DNA of 64,000 bases, taken from assembly GCF_014642075.1 (NCBI RefSeq), contig NZ_BMIK01000003.1:310001-374000 (forward strand), given 5' to 3'. This stretch comes from Parapedobacter defluvii (GTDB taxonomy: Bacteria > Bacteroidota > Bacteroidia > Sphingobacteriales > Sphingobacteriaceae). Shown piece by piece: positions 980 to 32,932 of the stretch (positions are counted from its first letter, which is position 1; every line of letters starts with the position of its first letter). Position numbers and translations under genes: made by a program. Under the pieces are notes generated by a model. The model saw only the letters and a program-made list of their open reading frames with translations. It searched no databases and was not told the origin of the DNA.

Positions 980-3900
980 TTACGCTGCCATGTCACTCAA
1001 TATACGGATGGCCTGTCCGATGTCGGGAACCTGTTCAAAGGCGATACGCAGCGAACCTTTTACTTCTTTAAGGTTGCAGATAGTTGGGTTTTGCTGCACA
1101 AATTGGAGTACCTTTCCAAAACGGTCACTTTCGAAATAACCGGGGTTAGTTGCGAAATAACCTCTCAGTATGTTTTTCTTGAAAGAAATTTTTTCAAAAC
1201 CGATTTCTTTGCCCAGCCATTGTAGCCGCAGGGTGTTGAGCAACTCTTCCACCGGATACGGCACCGGCCCGAAACGGTCCCGCAACGACTGCTTGAATGC
1301 ATTCAGCTCCGACTCGTTTTCCAGCTTGGCAATTTCATTGTAGAGATTATAGCGCTCAGCCACATTCGTGACGTATTCATCCGGAATAAGTACTTCCAAA
1401 TCCGTATCAATCTGAGTAAAAGGAACGAAATCCCGTGGTTTCACATCTTTGAAGAGATCTGAAAACTCATCGTCTTTCAATTCCTGTATAGCCTCATCCA
1501 GGATTTTATGATACATCTCGAAGCCAATCTCTGCGATAAAACCGCTCTGCTCCGCTCCCAACAGGTTACCGCTGCCCCGGATATCAAGGTCGCGCATGGC
1601 AACATTGAATCCACTCCCCAATTCCGAAAACTCCTCGATGGCACTGAGCCGCTTGTACGCCTCCGAGGTAAGTGTGGAAAGCGGCGGACTGAGCAGGTAA
1701 CAGAACGCTTTTTTATTGGTACGCCCCACACGGCCCCGCATCTGGTGCAGGTCGCTGAGACCGAACATATGAGCATGGTTGATGATGATTGTATTGGCAT
1801 TGGGAATGTCCAACCCCGCCTCGATAATGGTAGTAGCCACCAGCACATCGTACTCGTGGTTGATGAATTTAAGCATCACATCTTCGAGCGCATCGCCTTC
1901 CAGTTGCCCGTGGGCTACCCCTACCCGGGCATGCGGCACCAGCTTCTTGATGAGAACTCCCAATTGCGGCAGGTCGGCCACCCGGTTGTGTATAAAAAAC
2001 ACCTGACCGCTGCGGTCAATTTCATACGTCACCGCTTCCTGTATCAACGTCTCGTTGAACACATGGAGCTCCGTTTGTACCGGCTGGCGGTTTGGCGGCG
2101 GCGTGTTGATGATACTCAGGTCGCGTGCCCCCATCAACGAGAAATGCAACGTCCGCGGAATGGGTGTCGCGGTCAGCGTCAGCGCATCCACATTGGCCCG
2201 GATCTGCTTAAGTTTCTCCTTCACGCCCACGCCGAATTTCTGCTCTTCATCCACGATCATCAAGCCGAGGTCCTTGAATTTGACATCCTTGCTCACCAAA
2301 CGGTGCGTACCGATGATGACATCCAGCTTACCTTCGGCCAGGCGCGCCAGGGTATCTTTGATTTCCTTGGTGGTTTTGAAGCGGTTGATATAGTCGATCG
2401 TACACGGGAAGCCTTTAAGCCGTTCAGAAAACGTGCGGTAATGCTGCATGGCCAGAATGGTTGTCGGCACCAGCACGGCTACCTGCTTACTATCGGCCAC
2501 CGCTTTGAATGCCGCCCGGATGGCAACCTCCGTCTTACCAAAGCCCACATCTCCGCACACCAGCCGATCCATTGGATGAGGCGATTCCATGTCGCGTTTG
2601 ACATCCAGTGTCGCTTTTTCCTGATCGGGCGTATCTTCGTAAATAAAAGAAGCCTCCAGCTCGGTTTGCAGGTAGGTATCCGGACTGTATGCGTTACCCG
2701 TCTGTGCTTTTCGCTGGGCATAAAGCTTGATCAGGTCCCGTGCAATGTCCTTAACTTTTTTTTTAGTGTTTTTTTTTAGTTTGTCCCAGGTGTCAGTACC
2801 CAATTTATTCATCCTGGGAACCACACCCTCTTTGCCGCTATATTTGGAAATACGGTTAAGCGAATTGATGTTTACATACAGGAGATCGTTGTCGGCGTAT
2901 ACCAACCGGATCATTTCCTGCATCTTGCCATTGACCTCCACTTTTTCCAGTCCGGCATACTTGCCAATACCGTGGTCGATGTGTGTGATGTAGTCGCCAG
3001 GCTTCAGTTCCCGCAGTTCCTTGAGCGTAATAGCCTGCGAGCGTTCGTAACCTTTTTTGCGTTTGTATTTATAATACCGGTCAAAAACCTGATGGTCCGT
3101 ATAACAGGCTACTCCCAATTCAACCTCCACAAATCCTTCACGCAGGCCAATATGGATCGGAGTAAATGTAACCGATTTATCCAAATCGTCCAGAATGGTG
3201 AGGAGCCGCTCAATCTGCTTGGGTGAATCGCTGAAAATGCAGTTGTGAATATGCGCCTTCTCGTTTTCTTTAAAGTTATGGATCAGCAAGCTGAAGTCCT
3301 TATTAAAAGAAGGTTGCGGACGCTGCTCGAATGAAATGGACTCCGTGGCCTGGTAAAAAAACTGCTTGCCGAATTCGACCACGGCGAAGTCATGCAGCAT
3401 CGCGGCAAGATTCTTTTCATCCACAAAACTATACCGCGGATCGATCCATTCCGGATTCTGATGTTTATCGGCGTCAGGAAGCGCCTTCCATAGCTCTCCT
3501 GCCTTTTTATAGCCTTTTCCCACCACATCCAGCGTAAACTGCACATCTTCAAACCAAATGGCAGAATCCGCCGAAATATACTCCAATAACGAAATATTGC
3601 CTTCTGTCAGGAATTTAGCCTGCACATTGGGCACAATTGTTACGGTGTGTATTTTACTTACCGACAACTGGCTTTCGATGTCGAAGGTACGGATGCTTTC
3701 GATGTCGTTACCAAAAAATTCAATCCGGTAAGGAAGATCGTTTGAAAACGAAAAAATGTCCACAATACCGCCACGGATGGCATATTGGCCGGGTTCGTAA
3801 ACGAAGTCTACACGCTCAAACTCATATTCCTGCAAGAACTCATTGATGAAGTCGATATCAAGGTTGCTGCTTTGGGTAATTTCAAGCGTATTTTTCTGTA

Positions 3901-4312
3901 AATCGTTCCGATTAATTACTTTTTCTGCCAACGCCTCCGGATAGGTAACCACCATTTTAGGCAGTTCGGTGGTGTGGTTGAGGGCACTGAGGGTTTCCGC
4001 ACGTTGCAAAACATGTGCACTGTCGGTCTGCGTGAAATCAAATGCTTTGCGATAAGACGCCGGGAAAAAAAGCACCTGCTTATCCAATAGACCTTCCAGG
4101 TCGCTCAGGAAATAAGAGGCATCTTCGTGCGTAGGTAGTACAAATATCATTGGCCGTTCCTGCAACTGATAGCATGCCACAGCTACCATCGCATCGGCCG
4201 ACCCCATCAATCCACGAAGCTGAATTTTCGGATTTTTGCCTTGCAAAGCCTTCGCGAGAGCGGTTACCCTTCCACTTTCGCGGTAATTCAATAAGATATC
4301 GTCTATGCCCAC
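980..4312 (-). CDS. mfd: Transcription-repair coupling factor Mfd
   Basis: This ATP-dependent translocase pushes stalled RNA polymerase off DNA and recruits UvrA. Visible parts in order are the UvrB-like N-terminal module, the RNA-polymerase-interacting CarD-like domain (about residues 435-500, KPGDYITHIDHGIGKY), Walker A GDVGFGKTE (about 586), the DEEQ box (about 690), motif VI QMRGRVGR (about 859) and the TRCF C-terminal domain. The open frame continues 86 codons further upstream, but that part has unrelated composition and runs into the next gene. I therefore choose the GTG at 4310-4312, giving 1110 residues, the usual length, with a good -7 element just upstream. Two runs of nine A separated by CACT (2756-2777) encode a Lys-rich stretch. 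Confidence 0.95.
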   Translation of the reverse strand: MGIDDILLNYRESGRVTALAKALQGKNPKIQLRGLMGSADAMVAVACYQLQERPMIFVLPTHEDASYFLSDLEGLLDKQVLFFPASYRKAFDFTQTDSAHVLQRAETLSALNHTTELPKMVVTYPEALAEKVINRNDLQKNTLEITQSSNLDIDFINEFLQEYEFERVDFVYEPGQYAIRGGIVDIFSFSNDLPYRIEFFGNDIESIRTFDIESQLSVSKIHTVTIVPNVQAKFLTEGNISLLEYISADSAIWFEDVQFTLDVVGKGYKKAGELWKALPDADKHQNPEWIDPRYSFVDEKNLAAMLHDFAVVEFGKQFFYQATESISFEQRPQPSFNKDFSLLIHNFKENEKAHIHNCIFSDSPKQIERLLTILDDLDKSVTFTPIHIGLREGFVEVELGVACYTDHQVFDRYYKYKRKKGYERSQAITLKELRELKPGDYITHIDHGIGKYAGLEKVEVNGKMQEMIRLVYADNDLLYVNINSLNRISKYSGKEGVVPRMNKLGTDTWDKLKKNTKKKVKDIARDLIKLYAQRKAQTGNAYSPDTYLQTELEASFIYEDTPDQEKATLDVKRDMESPHPMDRLVCGDVGFGKTEVAIRAAFKAVADSKQVAVLVPTTILAMQHYRTFSERLKGFPCTIDYINRFKTTKEIKDTLARLAEGKLDVIIGTHRLVSKDVKFKDLGLMIVDEEQKFGVGVKEKLKQIRANVDALTLTATPIPRTLHFSLMGARDLSIINTPPPNRQPVQTELHVFNETLIQEAVTYEIDRSGQVFFIHNRVADLPQLGVLIKKLVPHARVGVAHGQLEGDALEDVMLKFINHEYDVLVATTIIEAGLDIPNANTIIINHAHMFGLSDLHQMRGRVGRTNKKAFCYLLSPPLSTLTSEAYKRLSAIEEFSELGSGFNVAMRDLDIRGSGNLLGAEQSGFIAEIGFEMYHKILDEAIQELKDDEFSDLFKDVKPRDFVPFTQIDTDLEVLIPDEYVTNVAERYNLYNEIAKLENESELNAFKQSLRDRFGPVPYPVEELLNTLRLQWLGKEIGFEKISFKKNILRGYFATNPGYFESDRFGKVLQFVQQNPTICNLKEVKGSLRIAFEQVPDIGQAIRILSDMAA

Positions 4313-4328
4313 CGTGTAAAAAACGGTG

Positions 4329-4336
4329 CAAAGATA
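4329..4336 (-). promoter_or_regulatory. Promoter -7 element for mfd
   Basis: On the minus strand this reads TATCTTTG, an exact match to the Bacteroidetes -7 consensus TAnnTTTG, ending 16 nt before the proposed GTG start of mfd. No TTG lies at the usual 17-23 nt upstream distance, so the -33 half is weak. The position excludes the longer N-terminal extension of mfd from the transcript. Confidence 0.6.
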
Positions 4337-4358
4337 CGTAAAAATTGCCAAATTATAG

Positions 4359-5000
4359 CTAAAACCGATAGCCGATTGACAGGGAATATGCCCCGTTCCG
4401 TTGATCATACGAAGCCCTGGCAGGCGCGATATTCCGTATGCCGGCCAGGTAATTGAATGATATCGCATATCCCTGCTTGGTTTGGTATCCAATCCCCATA
4501 CTAAATCCGTAGTCTGTGGATTGCTGCGTCCCTCCGTCGCCGAAGCTAAAGTCCCTGCTGGCCGATCCATCGTAAGAACTACTTAGGTAATTCTTACCAT
4601 AAAGACCATATCCAAAGTAGCCTCCTGCTTTCACGAATACATGGCTCGAATCGTTGAAGGGTACCTTGCCCACAACCGATAGCGGAACCTGCAACCAATA
4701 GGTATGCTGGGTGACTTCACGGGAACCGAACTCCGATTTTTCCAGTGCAGCGCCAAGCCCCACAATGGAAAGTCCCGTTTCAACACCCACGTATTTAGTG
4801 GGGAAAACCGTAACCAAAGCGGCCAATTGACCATTGACCGTCGGCGAAGCCTCCCGGCTAACGCCACTGCTGATGTCGCTTAGGAAATACCGGGGAAACG
4901 TAACTCCCGCATATACACTGTAATCCGTCGTCCATTGCTGAGCTTTTGAGGAACAGACGGTGCCAACAAGTGCAAAATAGATAAGCCAATATCTTTTCAT
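4359..5000 (-). CDS. Outer-membrane beta-barrel protein (porin-like)
   Basis: A 213-residue protein starting at the ATG that begins a clear signal peptide (MKRYWLIYFALVGTVCSSKAQ). The mature part is rich in alternating, aromatic-capped strands (YVGVETGLSIVGLG, YGFSMGIGYQTKQGY) and ends in the barrel-type terminus SLSIGYRF, so it should be a small outer-membrane barrel of the PorT/OmpA-barrel kind. It is the last gene of a run with the kelch and DUF4270 lipoproteins (56 bp gap). The in-frame extension upstream of this ATG has no signal features. The specific function is unknown. Confidence 0.8.
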   Translation of the reverse strand: MKRYWLIYFALVGTVCSSKAQQWTTDYSVYAGVTFPRYFLSDISSGVSREASPTVNGQLAALVTVFPTKYVGVETGLSIVGLGAALEKSEFGSREVTQHTYWLQVPLSVVGKVPFNDSSHVFVKAGGYFGYGLYGKNYLSSSYDGSASRDFSFGDGGTQQSTDYGFSMGIGYQTKQGYAISFNYLAGIRNIAPARASYDQRNGAYSLSIGYRF

Positions 5001-22942: not shown

Positions 22943-23012
22943 ATGAAGCTTGCATAAATTGTTCATGTCCATTTTGTATACGCAATTTATGCAGGTTTCA
23001 TTAGAATAATTT
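22943..23012. repeat. 70-bp hairpin repeat, copy 1
   Basis: This copy differs from copy 2 at three positions, all in the central loop. Within it, a perfect 11-bp core inverted repeat (TGCATAAATTG and its complement) extends to 17 matched of 19 positions, from ATGAAGCTTGCATAAATTG to CAATTTATGCAGGTTTCAT, with a 21-nt loop. It ends 27 bp upstream of the response regulator ATG. Confidence 0.9.
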
Positions 23013-23026
23013 GCTTTTTTAAGGCT

Positions 23027-23096
23027 ATGAAGCTTGCATAAATTGTTCATGTCCATTCTATATATGCAATTTATGCAGGTTTCATTAGAATAATTT
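23027..23096. repeat. 70-bp hairpin repeat, copy 2
   Basis: This is the second direct copy, 14 bp beyond copy 1. Its outer end overlaps the first two bases of the complement of the kinase stop codon (23095-23097). The stem arms are identical to copy 1, while the loop differs at three bases, so the stem appears to be conserved. Confidence 0.9.
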
Positions 23097-29801: not shown

Positions 29802-30713
29802 ATGAAAAAACAATGCATTCTTTATACACTTGTTTTTGTTCTATGTGGATCGATCAGTGGATGCACGGATACCATCGATTTCTATCAGGAAGATCGACAA
29901 TCGGCCATCGTACTGAACAGCCTGCTCAATACCGACAGCATCGTTTACGCCCGGATGACGTGGATGAACAAACCGGGAGCAATGTACGACTATTGGACCT
30001 TTAATGAAATCAAGGATGCCGAAGTCTCGCTGTATGAAAACGGGGATTTCGTTGAGCGCCTTGCGCCTGTAACCATCGGCGACAGCCTCTATAATTCTCA
30101 CTATTACAAAAGCACCCACTCTGTGCGTCAGGGACAAACCTATCGGTTGGTTGCCACCCTGCCAGATGGGCAACGGGTATCAGCGGAGGGATGGATACCC
30201 GCCCAGCCTTCCTTTTCGATCGGAAAGGCTAAATGGATACCTTCACCTTCGAATCCGGGACGCGATGAGACCCAAGTCGATTTAAAGCTGAATGATCCCC
30301 CCGGTGAGCGCAACTATTACCGTATCCGGATATTCACTTTTTTTGAAGGTTATGTCGAACGTCGGTTTCAACACTTCACCTGGATCGGCCCCGGTAAGCA
30401 GGAAGCCAACTTCTTTGAGGATGAATTCCATCAACAGGTGTTTATTGACGACGAACTGTTTGATGGGCAATCCGTCGAACTGATCCTGCGCTGCGAAAAC
30501 ATGCTTTTTGAAAACGACCGGATCGAAGTGACGGCCCTTACGCAGGAATCTTACCGCTATCTCCGCAACAATGCCTTTGCAAACGAATCAGTCGATAATA
30601 TCCTTACCGAACCGATCCCGGTGTATACCAACGTGACTGACGGGCTGGGATTTGTCGGCGGTGTGGCTGTACGTGAGCAAAACATTGAAGTGGATAGAAC
30701 GGGTGCTCCTTAA
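29802..30713 (+). CDS. DUF4249 family lipoprotein
   Basis: A 303-residue lipoprotein (signal KKQCILYTLVFVLCGSISG then Cys). DUF4249 features include IVLNSLLNTDSIVYARMT, DAEVSLYENGDFVERL and GQTYRLVATLPDGQRVSAE. Members are surface partners of TonB receptors in Bacteroidetes. The ATG at 29802 opens the signal peptide; 29793 is an alternative. The stop codon lies inside a 23-bp direct repeat whose twin forms the 3' end of the methyltransferase-like gene at 31525, so this gene's downstream context was altered by an insertion. Confidence 0.88.
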   Translation: MKKQCILYTLVFVLCGSISGCTDTIDFYQEDRQSAIVLNSLLNTDSIVYARMTWMNKPGAMYDYWTFNEIKDAEVSLYENGDFVERLAPVTIGDSLYNSHYYKSTHSVRQGQTYRLVATLPDGQRVSAEGWIPAQPSFSIGKAKWIPSPSNPGRDETQVDLKLNDPPGERNYYRIRIFTFFEGYVERRFQHFTWIGPGKQEANFFEDEFHQQVFIDDELFDGQSVELILRCENMLFENDRIEVTALTQESYRYLRNNAFANESVDNILTEPIPVYTNVTDGLGFVGGVAVREQNIEVDRTGAP

Positions 30714-30730
30714 AACCGGATGCGAAAATC
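30708..30730. repeat. 23-bp direct repeat, left copy
   Basis: CCTTAAAACCGGATGCGAAA plus ATC is identical to 31523-31545. It contains the stop codon of the DUF4249 gene. The two copies bracket 792 bp holding the MntA/HepT pair. The sequence reads as the last codons of the methyltransferase-like gene in reverse, so this left copy is the displaced duplicate. Confidence 0.9.
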
Positions 30731-30741
30731 TGGTTTTCAAG
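30709..30741 (+). terminator. Hairpin after the DUF4249 gene
   Basis: The arms 30709-30719 (CTTAAAACCGG) and 30730-30741 (CTGGTTTTCAAG) pair imperfectly around a 10-nt loop. The left arm comes from the direct repeat and the right arm from the inserted segment. It may terminate the sigma/receptor operon; there is no long T run. Confidence 0.4.
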
Positions 30742-30771
30742 TGACCTACTCAGGACATTAAAATTCCTCTA

Positions 30772-30802
30772 TTGCAAATGCAATAAAAATATCGTATCAT
30801 TG
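30772..30802 (+). promoter_or_regulatory. Promoter and operator-like palindrome for the MntA/HepT pair
   Basis: TTG at 30772-30774 and TATCATTG at 30795-30802 are spaced by 20 nt; the -7 has one mismatch to TAnnTTTG. The palindrome ATTGCA-AA-TGCAAT (30771-30784) covers the -33 region, a position suited to autoregulation. The predicted start of transcription lies beyond the ATG at 30805, which favours the ATG at 30826 as translation start. Confidence 0.5.
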
Positions 30803-30825
30803 TCATGAAGGCTAATGGGTTGCAC

Positions 30826-31131
30826 ATGAAACTCAGTAAAAAGGACATAAACACGATCAGAAAGTATTTTTCCCGAATACCGGTAAATAAGGCTTATTTA
30901 TTCGGTTCATTTGCAAGAAATCAAGCGGATGAAAGCAGCGATGTGGATATCTTGGTTGAACTTGACTATCGACAACCCATCGGCCTCCGCTTTTTTACCT
31001 TCCAGGATGAATTATCAACACTTTTGAATCGAGGAGTTGATTTAGTGACCGAAGATGGTCTCTCAAAGTATGTTCGGCCATTCGTTGAAAATGACAAAGT
31101 CCTTATCTATGAAAGGCCAGCTCGGCGATAA
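30826..31131 (+). CDS. mntA: MntA-type minimal nucleotidyltransferase antitoxin
   Basis: A 101-residue protein with the MNT motif GSFARNQADESSDVD (G-S-x10-D-x-D) followed by the third acidic strand (GVDLV). In type VII toxin-antitoxin systems MntA transfers AMP to a tyrosine of the HepT toxin and silences it; that role is from the family. I choose the ATG at 30826 because the promoter places the transcript start after 30805. It overlaps hepT by 23 bp. Codon use and base composition are visibly more AT-rich than the flanking genes. Confidence 0.85.
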   Translation: MKLSKKDINTIRKYFSRIPVNKAYLFGSFARNQADESSDVDILVELDYRQPIGLRFFTFQDELSTLLNRGVDLVTEDGLSKYVRPFVENDKVLIYERPARR

Positions 31132-31456
31132 AGTTAGGATTCAACATGTTTTAGATGCTATTGGTGAAGTCGAATCCTATCTTAAAGGGGTGGAATACGA
31201 GGCGTTTATCCAAAACTCTGAAAAACGGTTTGCCACGATTAAGCAAATTGAGATCATCGGAGAAGCTTGTAACGCAATAAGCCAAAAAATAAAAGATACA
31301 AACAGCGGAATTCCCTGGAAAGCGATTAAAGGATTCCGTAACATATCTATTCACGAATATTTCGGCGTCAACCTACGAATCATTTGGGATATCGCTCAGT
31401 ACGACTTGCCCCCGATGAAAGAACAACTTCAAAACATACTTAAAACGTTGATTTAA
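31109..31456 (+). CDS. hepT: HepT-type toxin (DUF86)
   Basis: A 115-residue all-helical HEPN protein. The active-site motif RNISIHEY (R-x4-H-x-Y) is intact, including the Tyr that MntA-type enzymes modify, and IEIIGEACNAIS is the family's central helix. HepT proteins are RNases that stop growth when not AMPylated. The start at 31109 gives a 23-bp overlap with the antitoxin gene. The pair lies between 23-bp perfect direct repeats and splits two genes that would otherwise overlap end to end. Confidence 0.88.
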   Translation: MKGQLGDKVRIQHVLDAIGEVESYLKGVEYEAFIQNSEKRFATIKQIEIIGEACNAISQKIKDTNSGIPWKAIKGFRNISIHEYFGVNLRIIWDIAQYDLPPMKEQLQNILKTLI

Positions 31457-31522
31457 TTCAAAGTATTTTCTTATACGACTCGCTACTAACTCTTTCAGAT
31501 CTAGGAGGAGGAAGGGCCGAAG

Positions 31523-31545
31523 CCTTAAAACCGGATGCGAAAATC
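31523..31545. repeat. 23-bp direct repeat, right copy
   Basis: This copy is identical to 30708-30730. It is the native position: on the minus strand it encodes the last residues DFRIRF and the stop of the methyltransferase-like protein, an ending typical of that family. Confidence 0.9.
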
Positions 31546-32001
31546 CTCCTTGGCCTGCCCTTCGTGGAAAAATACCATGCCCAGGTGGAACAAATCGACG
31601 GTTACCGTCACGTCTGGTCGCTTTTGAAGGGTACGCCAAAATTTTCTCATCTGTTTGCCACGGTAAATACCGATCAGTACCAATACGCTACCCGTGTGAA
31701 GCTGTGACCAAAGCTGCCGCAGTTGGGATGTTAGCCGGTCTACATCATTCCCGTTGACGATGACCAAGTCCAACGGATAGGTGGGTAACGGTTCGCCTAT
31801 CCGATATACCGTATCGGGAGTAAACCTGGCAATTAGCCGGGCTATCAGCCGTTCTACTTTACCAAGGGGTTCTTGACTCCTTCGGGGTGCGTAAATTACT
31901 TCATCCACTAGCTTATACACGAAAGGCGAATGTGTACCATGACGCGAATGGGACGTCAGGAAATGCAGGATGTAATCAACGTAAAACCGAGGGCTGCGCA
32001 T
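31525..32001 (-). CDS. Eroded class I methyltransferase-like protein
   Basis: A 158-residue protein that keeps both ends of a Bacteroidetes SAM-methyltransferase family normally about 230-265 residues long: the start SRHGTHSPFVYKLVDEVIY and the end DLVIVNGND ... VTVDLFHLGMVFFHEGQ ... DFRIRF. The central part is missing: the SAM-binding ELGTSxG motif appears only as YRIGE and runs straight into the later strand, and the conserved DDIHW becomes IGIYR. It is unlikely to bind SAM. The frame is intact, so it may have a non-catalytic role or be an early-stage relic. The ATG at 31999-32001 fits the family start. Confidence 0.7.
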   Translation of the reverse strand: MRSPRFYVDYILHFLTSHSRHGTHSPFVYKLVDEVIYAPRRSQEPLGKVERLIARLIARFTPDTVYRIGEPLPTYPLDLVIVNGNDVDRLTSQLRQLWSQLHTGSVLVLIGIYRGKQMRKFWRTLQKRPDVTVTVDLFHLGMVFFHEGQAKEDFRIRF

Positions 32002-32029
32002 CGGATCAAAGATACGGGAAACTGTCTGT

Positions 32030-32932
32030 TTATTTCCATCTCCGATGCGACCAAAGCCAATACGCCGGTTCCTTCCGAATGGTTTCTTGCAATCGCTCAC
32101 CGAAGCACCGGGTTATCTCGCCTTTGGCTGTTTCGTTAGGTTTATCTGTTATTAATGAAAAATGCACATCCCATCCGGCTTCCCCATTTCTTTCCAGCTC
32201 GATATAGAAAACCACTGCATCGATTGCTTTGGCTAATTTTTCAGCTCCATCAAATAAGGCGGTCGGCTGATTCAGCAATTCCATAGGAAGGCCCCGATTG
32301 CGCCCCGGAAACTGATCGGCAATAAACAGACTGAGGGAAGCATCGTCTTTCGCTTTCATCAATTGGCGTACGGCCTTTTCTGCCGGAATCAACTGCATCC
32401 CAAACCGGGAACGGGTGTACATTACGAAGCGACCTACCGATTTGTTTGACAAGGGTTTGTACAGGGCTTTTACCGGTATGGACAGTTTACTGGGTAAGAT
32501 ACTCAGACTCTCCCAGTTGCCGTAATGTCCAAGCAATGCTACCATGGGTTTTGCCTTACACTGATACTGTTCCAGTAAATCTGCATCCACAATACGGACA
32601 CGACCGGCCAGTTCTCGCCTACTGACGGAAAATGATTTAATAATTTCAACTACAAGACAGGAAAAATGCCGATAAAAGTCTTTTGCCAAGGCATGGATTT
32701 CTGCATAGGGCTTTTCTGGAAACGAACGCGAAAGATTTTGGACAACCACCTGATAGCGGTAACGGGCAAACGAATAAATAAAGAAATAGCAGCATCGCCC
32801 AATGGTGGCCGACAATAGGGGCTGAGGCAACCTACTGAGGAGAAACACAGGAAAGAGCATAGCCCCGCAAATAGCCCTTTCCCATACGGCGGGCCATCGC
32901 TCCCTGATCCTAGTGCGGCCATTCATAGTCAT
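32030..32932 (-). CDS. LpxL/HtrB-like lipid A acyltransferase
   Basis: A 300-residue inner-membrane acyltransferase of the lauroyl/myristoyl family. It has an N-terminal membrane helix (about 20-45), the catalytic H-x4-E in LLGHYGNWES, the substrate-binding FIADQFPGRNRG and the strongly conserved C-terminus YWLWSHRRWK. It adds secondary acyl chains to lipid A. Neighbours are the eroded methyltransferase 28 bp downstream and a tiny membrane ORF overlapping its 5' end. The start is not certain within the first few codons (ATG at 32932 or 32926). Confidence 0.9.
   Translation of the reverse strand: MTMNGRTRIRERWPAVWERAICGAMLFPVFLLSRLPQPLLSATIGRCCYFFIYSFARYRYQVVVQNLSRSFPEKPYAEIHALAKDFYRHFSCLVVEIIKSFSVSRRELAGRVRIVDADLLEQYQCKAKPMVALLGHYGNWESLSILPSKLSIPVKALYKPLSNKSVGRFVMYTRSRFGMQLIPAEKAVRQLMKAKDDASLSLFIADQFPGRNRGLPMELLNQPTALFDGAEKLAKAIDAVVFYIELERNGEAGWDVHFSLITDKPNETAKGEITRCFGERLQETIRKEPAYWLWSHRRWK

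Follow-up and report, generated by a model that had tools for sequence, protein, structure and literature searches.

Comparison of the window (the whole 64-kb stretch of DNA that was analysed, located at G000:C3:310001-374000 of a 5.8-Mb genome) with the Parapedobacter congener G006 reveals that a toxin-antitoxin (TA) pair, MntA/HepT, has been inserted between two convergent genes with duplication of 23 bp of target sequence, and that both flanking genes have remained intact. The best explanation of the whole, to which we assign a probability of about 0.7, is that a TA fragment was inserted where the target had been opened with a stagger or by a strand switch, and that the target was copied on both sides as direct repeats. 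The finding bears on how lone chromosomal TA modules outside known mobile elements reach new sites. When a solitary module is bracketed by a duplicated gene end and a sister species has the site unoccupied, such movement acquires a measurable signature, and the scar ties TA modules to a mode of insertion proposed for restriction-modification (RM) systems. In addition, the signature permits surveys of the frequency and recency of TA module insertion and of the genes that are targeted.

The inserted segment and the empty site

The two 23-bp direct repeats, located on the plus strand at 30708..30730 and 31523..31545, match each other exactly (23/23) at the coordinates given in the initial annotation, and they are the only copies of the 23-mer in the entire genome when up to 3 mismatches are allowed. 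A DUF4249 gene (PF14054; 29793..30713, plus strand) ends within the left repeat, with its stop codon at 30711-30713, and the right repeat is the native 3' end of a minus-strand gene of 191 aa (31525..32100, stop at 31525-31527), which confirms the positions that had been assigned to both copies. Each of these target genes is retained at full length. The right-hand gene adjoins a gene of the lipid A acyltransferase family and has no Pfam or NCBIfam match; its earlier description as methyltransferase-like finds no support in either collection. A search of the 64-kb window for 20-mers occurring exactly twice returned one other direct repeat, a tandem repeat near 23 kb (22943-23096) with 31-bp exact matches at a spacing of 84 bp in two stretches.

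Between the 23-mers lies the inserted segment (30731..31522, plus strand), 792 bp that are missing from G006. Its GC content of 39.1%, compared with 47.7% for the window and 48.5% and 49.7% for the two flanking genes, is so low that only 0.08% of the 792-bp windows sampled lie in the same bottom range, in keeping with the AT-richness noticed earlier. MntA and HepT are the only plus-strand ORFs of at least 60 aa in the insert, and the remaining ORFs of the list are minus-strand frames that overlap them; Pfam and the ORF list thus agree with the initial annotation that the repeats enclose this pair only. No recombinase or integrase gene was detected in the 792 bp by the ORF list and Pfam, and no terminal inverted repeats were detected at the window insert (local score 12).

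At the orthologous site G006 has no MntA/HepT pair and contains a single copy of the 23-mer with 2 mismatches, the ortholog of the left repeat. The flanking genes in G006 are orthologs of those in the window (protein identity of 81% for DUF4249 and of 62% over the last 167 residues for the right-hand gene) and are convergent, with stops overlapping by 4 bp (CTAA). Precisely such an empty site, with one 23-mer and convergent genes overlapping at their stops, had been predicted from the window sequence. The alignment blocks of the two genomes overlap by exactly 23 bp at this locus. In the window, the 4 bp equivalent to CTAA fall within the duplicated segment, and each gene has its own stop. Since the stops overlap by 4 bp, only an insertion that duplicates at least 4 bp keeps both genes, and this need partly explains the survival of a duplicating event at the locus. 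In the other seven congeners the neighbours of the right-hand gene are different, and these genomes are uninformative on the empty site.

The MntA/HepT pair

The predicted antitoxin MntA, a minimal nucleotidyltransferase (PF01909/PF18765), is encoded at 30826..31131 on the plus strand with an intact GSX10DXD motif, and the predicted toxin HepT, a HEPN RNase (PF01934), is encoded at 31109..31456 on the same strand with an intact RX4HXY motif. The end of mntA and hepT overlap by 23 nt. The MntA start was selected by comparison with the protein of P. soli (the listed ORF begins at 30805) and the HepT start by homology. The text seen from PMC7641770 gives GSX10DXD and RX4HXY as the marks of the class I HEPN/MNT pair, that is, type VII HepT/MntA, and the window resembles that pair in having PF01909 and PF01934 genes as neighbours, with the antitoxin gene upstream and both motifs present. 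By domains and motifs the window pair is a type VII HepT/MntA-like TA module, with toxicity and adenylylation as predicted activities. It differs from type VII HepT/MntA in that its scores of 50.1 and 42.4 bits fall under the curated NCBIfam equivalog cut-offs of 60, the threshold for naming, and in that it is known here from sequence.

The closest relative found is a pair of Parapedobacter soli (G008, L074 4045-4392) with 75% HepT identity. It has no flanking repeats and is located directly upstream of another gene, the start of which is overlapped by the end of hepT; the downstream gene is presumably rlmH.

Flanking repeats at TA loci across the Bacteroidota

Direct repeats were scored by local alignment of the left against the right 400-bp flank of each TA unit, with a score of at least 40 regarded as strong; the score thresholds were fixed after an initial look at the data. 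From 165 MntA/HepT loci, 8 without a detectable pair or flanks and 3 duplicates were dropped, and L074-L077, L196, and L197 had been excluded at an earlier stage because they duplicated loci that were already included. Among the remaining 154 distinct Bacteroidota loci, which are best or chosen search matches and not a random sample, many of them from draft genomes, flanking direct repeats were present at 21 with a score of at least 40 and at 26 with a score of at least 34. Shifted brackets of the same loci reached 40 in 6 of 1170 cases and cross-locus pairs in 0.03% of 23,562. Ordinary gene units of 500-1000 bp had such repeats in 1 of 355 cases (1/112 from the same loci, 0/124 from G000:C3, and 0/119 from G006:C18), and the difference from 21/154 is significant by Fisher's test (p 7e-11).

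Apart from the window, the loci scoring at least 40 came from the named genomes (2/33), the best matches in the class (6/26) and the phylum (2/22), and the second sets from class (5/19) and phylum (5/20). In the window's own family, none of the 33 loci that passed the filters (window not counted) reached even 34, and 40 other loci had no exact flanking repeat above 13 bp. The link between pair and repeats emerged only with loci from other families. The initial annotation had held that pairs without repeats would remove this link. Such pairs exist, with 133 of the 154 loci scoring below 40, and the link is thereby limited to some insertions: the repeats are not obligate, and are the scar of certain insertions and not part of the module.

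Other TA families also have flanking repeats. Scores of at least 40 were recorded for 4 of 20 usable ParE-type modules (30 loci given; positives L305, L316, L320, and L328) and for 4 of 25 usable PIN-type modules (30 given, with an antitoxin ORF found in 21 of the 25; positives L340, L355, L356, and L357). The repeat at L305 resembles, by eye, a coding gene 3' end. DUF1801, a family of small non-TA genes, had no repeats at this score in 25 usable loci of 30 given; the contrast with the pooled TA loci (29/199, p 0.05) is weak by itself, the DUF1801 sample being small. The generality of TA insertion with duplication would be carried by the repeat scars, empty sites having been checked at two loci only. 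Overall, similar scars at other TA modules in the phylum suggest a common route of entry into genomes.

The unit between the repeats measured 657-1208 bp, and flanks of 400 bp would miss larger units. When 57 loci longer than 7 kb were searched with 3.5-kb flanks, the best 12 of the 57 included far repeats at L188 (score 182) and L170 (score 59) and seven others scoring 35-41.

Gene ends in the repeats

The repeats at the 21 loci scoring at least 40 have aligned lengths of 23-199 bp and locus-specific sequences. They extend into the end of a neighbouring gene at 11 of these 21 loci, and at 13 of the 26 loci scoring at least 34. According to Pfam, the 3' gene ends include, besides that of the window, those of carbamoyl-phosphate synthase large chain (L168 and L288), an arginase family protein (L257), 2-phosphosulpholactate phosphatase (L269), an epimerase (L278), a biotin/lipoate ligase (L217), and RimK (L180); that of L280 belongs to a 252-aa ORF without a family. 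The 5' gene ends are those of PhzF (L231), thymidylate synthase (L263), a sigma-54 activator (L215), and gyrase/topoisomerase IV A (L277, with 11 coding positions only). The repeats of ten loci scoring at least 40 are mostly non-coding or perhaps interspersed (L189, L202, L204, L205, L220, L234, L262, L267, L272, and L275), and three loci at 34-39 also fall outside the gene-end class (L229, L253, and L287). One of these ten, L189 of Thermoflexibacter ruber (3556-4592), has its pair bracketed by a repeat of ~155 bp, the two copies of which are 87% identical; this repeat looks interspersed.

The second locus with an empty site, L257, has a perfect direct repeat (62/62). A single copy without the insertion is present in four of five sibling species (G051, G325, G355, and G384), and the left flank was not found in the fifth, G258. 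The two L257 copies are identical, and the sibling sequences depart from them at 12-13 of the 62 repeat positions, so that both copies derive from the recipient lineage; the identity of the window copies (23/23), with 2 differences in G006, agrees with this pattern. The genome that contains L257 (G294) has a second repeat-bracketed MntA/HepT unit at a different gene, L263.

Diverged repeats present a more complex picture. Pooling the 11 coding repeats gives 66 differences, of which 42 are at third codon positions (p 6e-7 for an expected share of one third and 0.04 for one half) and 42 are synonymous. Per locus, third positions account for 3/3 differences at L168, 7/8 at L278, and 5/6 at L288. 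This bias exceeds what is expected from duplication followed by free decay, and some loci may contain the gene end of a donor. Constraint on the native copy, replacement of the native gene by another allele, or a donor-borne gene end could each contribute to the bias. The clean cases, L257 and the window, are read as target duplications, and donor-borne ends are possible for some of the diverged cases.

Mechanism and alternative explanations

The insertion probably proceeded as follows. The target would be opened with a stagger, through two offset nicks or through strand switching where a fork had stalled; a fragment of TA DNA would be joined into the opening; both overhangs would then be copied to yield the direct repeats; and the module would be retained through its own addiction effect, as may be supposed from what TA modules do. 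Illegitimate insertion of this kind fits the locus-specific sequence and variable length of the repeats, the use of both 5' and 3' gene ends, the lack of a recombinase, and the lack of terminal inverted repeats at the window. The repeats at other loci often cover a gene end, as the duplication repairs the gene that was struck and leaves one full copy. The same mechanism may have acted at the window and at the other TA loci.

End joining dependent on Ku was considered as the general cause and was ruled out. In a survey of 80 genomes, Ku was present in G000 and in 6 of 8 congeners, and it was present in only 2 of the 22 genomes with a repeat-positive MntA/HepT locus (score of at least 34, G000 counted); Ku-dependent joining is thus not the general route, and it could have operated at the window locus. 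Among the 50 remaining TA-bearing genomes, which include one with a repeat-positive ParE locus (G309), 6 have Ku. A broader and more tentative proposal is that solitary HepT/MntA, ParE, and VapC/PIN modules are gene-sized mobile units of Bacteroidota, moved by one recombinase-free and Ku-independent process that leaves long, variable duplications and restores gene ends unharmed, and that is maybe driven by or selected through the toxin.

Integrase sites typically have direct repeats at the 3' end of a gene, and the initial annotation had considered the 23-mers as an att-like scar. They would then be attL and attR of a small non-autonomous element or an island remnant, integrated by a tyrosine recombinase that worked in trans or was later lost. 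The genome does encode an enzyme of this type, in a 36-kb island with a 14-bp exact repeat at a tRNA-Glu gene on the same contig, and the window shares with tyrosine-recombinase integrative elements the formation of direct repeats by a gene 3' end. It differs from them, as do the other TA loci, in lacking an integrase and a fixed core and in the use of gene 5' ends as well, and the units contain the pair only. No further copy of the 23-mer exists in the genome, viral contigs contain no exact match to its form degenerate at 2 positions, and no fixed att core recurred in the genome, the congeners, the viral contigs, or the other TA loci. ORF lists of the seven other congeners, inspected by eye, revealed no common element at the end of the right-hand gene. 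The 23-mer was also considered as the att site of a larger element, and this was rejected when nine loci downstream of the right-hand gene (the 7 congeners and 2 further family members), inspected by eye, had no element in common. Relatives of HepT were absent from the viral contigs, gave 4 weak matches in 50,697 phage records, and occurred in 1462 of 72,556 plasmid records, all below 60% identity; these searches identified no donor element. The variation in repeat length and sequence, the lack of an integrase, and the lack of terminal inverted repeats argue against an att scar, which we regard as unlikely, and also against a classical transposon. A precise insertion with duplication could also come from classical transposition if the target-site duplication were fixed at an unusual length. 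This is highly improbable, since neither a transposase nor terminal inverted repeats (local score of 12) were found and the length of the duplication is variable; DDE transposons and insertion sequences differ from the window in their terminal inverted repeats and from the TA loci in their fixed, short duplications.

Campbell-type integration offers another source of the repeats. A circular TA-bearing DNA with the gene end of a donor species would have recombined at short homology with the resident gene. The third-position bias between copies (42/66 pooled, and strongest at L168, L278, and L288) is in line with such an origin, but it is also explicable by constraint on the native gene or by allele replacement. 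A stretch of 23 bp is short homology for RecA-dependent exchange, and the copies are identical where relatives diverge, both in the window (23/23, with 2 positions different in the congener) and at L257 (62/62, with 12-13 different in siblings). The text available from PMC2869330 proposes a circle model for repeat-flanked genes of Arabidopsis. Integration of the Campbell type is quite unlikely here. The least credible explanation is coincidence, with repeats on either side of the pair by mere chance or as a frequent feature of intergenic DNA. Interspersed repeats perhaps bracket ten of the 21 repeat-positive loci, which would suit it; the one-copy empty site in G006 refutes it at the window locus, the 23-mer occurs only twice in the genome, and the controls gave 1/355 and 6/1170. 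Staggered or strand-switch insertion of a TA fragment is the explanation retained.

Relation to known systems

Nobusato et al. (2000) and Furuta et al. (2010) are said to have described insertion with long target duplication (ILTD) for RM systems of Helicobacter pylori. In the portions seen of four papers (PMC1643837, PMC3031569, PMC3874152, and PMC3154945), ILTD is reported for RM systems, and PMC1643837 includes a two-genome comparison for RM insertion with long target duplication. As in the ILTD of these accounts, an addiction-type selfish unit has been inserted relative to a close relative and is flanked by variable direct target duplications: the target is single-copy in relatives (G006 and those of L257), the duplication varies (23-199 bp), and the unit has no recombinase. 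The window differs in that its unit is a TA pair (MntA/HepT) in Bacteroidota and not an RM system, for which ILTD is stated in those portions, and in that its duplication is short at 23 bp. The window insertion resembles ILTD as a process, with a TA module as the moved unit instead of an RM system. ILTD is already known for RM systems, and its likeness for TA modules appears to be new, as the titles and abstract openings returned by a literature search contained no report of TA modules with long target duplication. The suggestion in the initial annotation that TA cassettes move without their own recombinase thus holds as a pattern (21/154 MntA/HepT loci, together with ParE and PIN modules), but the mechanism is inferred and resembles the RM process.

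In the text seen from PMC4615327, PabI RM insertions include one with only TAAA at the boundary and no long duplication. The transposed Arabidopsis genes (PMC2869330, as far as its accessible text goes) resemble the window in that moved genes lie between direct repeats, and many of these repeats correspond to the orthologous target region of a relative; they differ in being plant genes with an excision-circle model and no TA content.

Other insertions between the two genomes

The comparison of G000:C3 with G006:C18 yielded 17 clean insertions of at least 150 bp in both directions. The longest exact end repeats among them were 23 bp, at the MntA/HepT locus, followed by 15 bp and 14 bp, and the other 14 insertions had at most 11 bp. 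The 14-bp case is the 36-kb island (G000:C3:131988-168453; L120 and following loci), located outside the window and missing from G006. It lies at a tRNA-Glu(ttc) gene, the 3' end of which forms the 14-bp exact repeat, and the left end of the island holds a tyrosine recombinase gene (PF00589). The 15-bp case is an insertion of 572 bp that G006 has and G000 lacks (L142 14845-15596; G006:C18:214845-215596), where the flanking alignment blocks overlap by 184 bp, which suggests a partial internal duplication.
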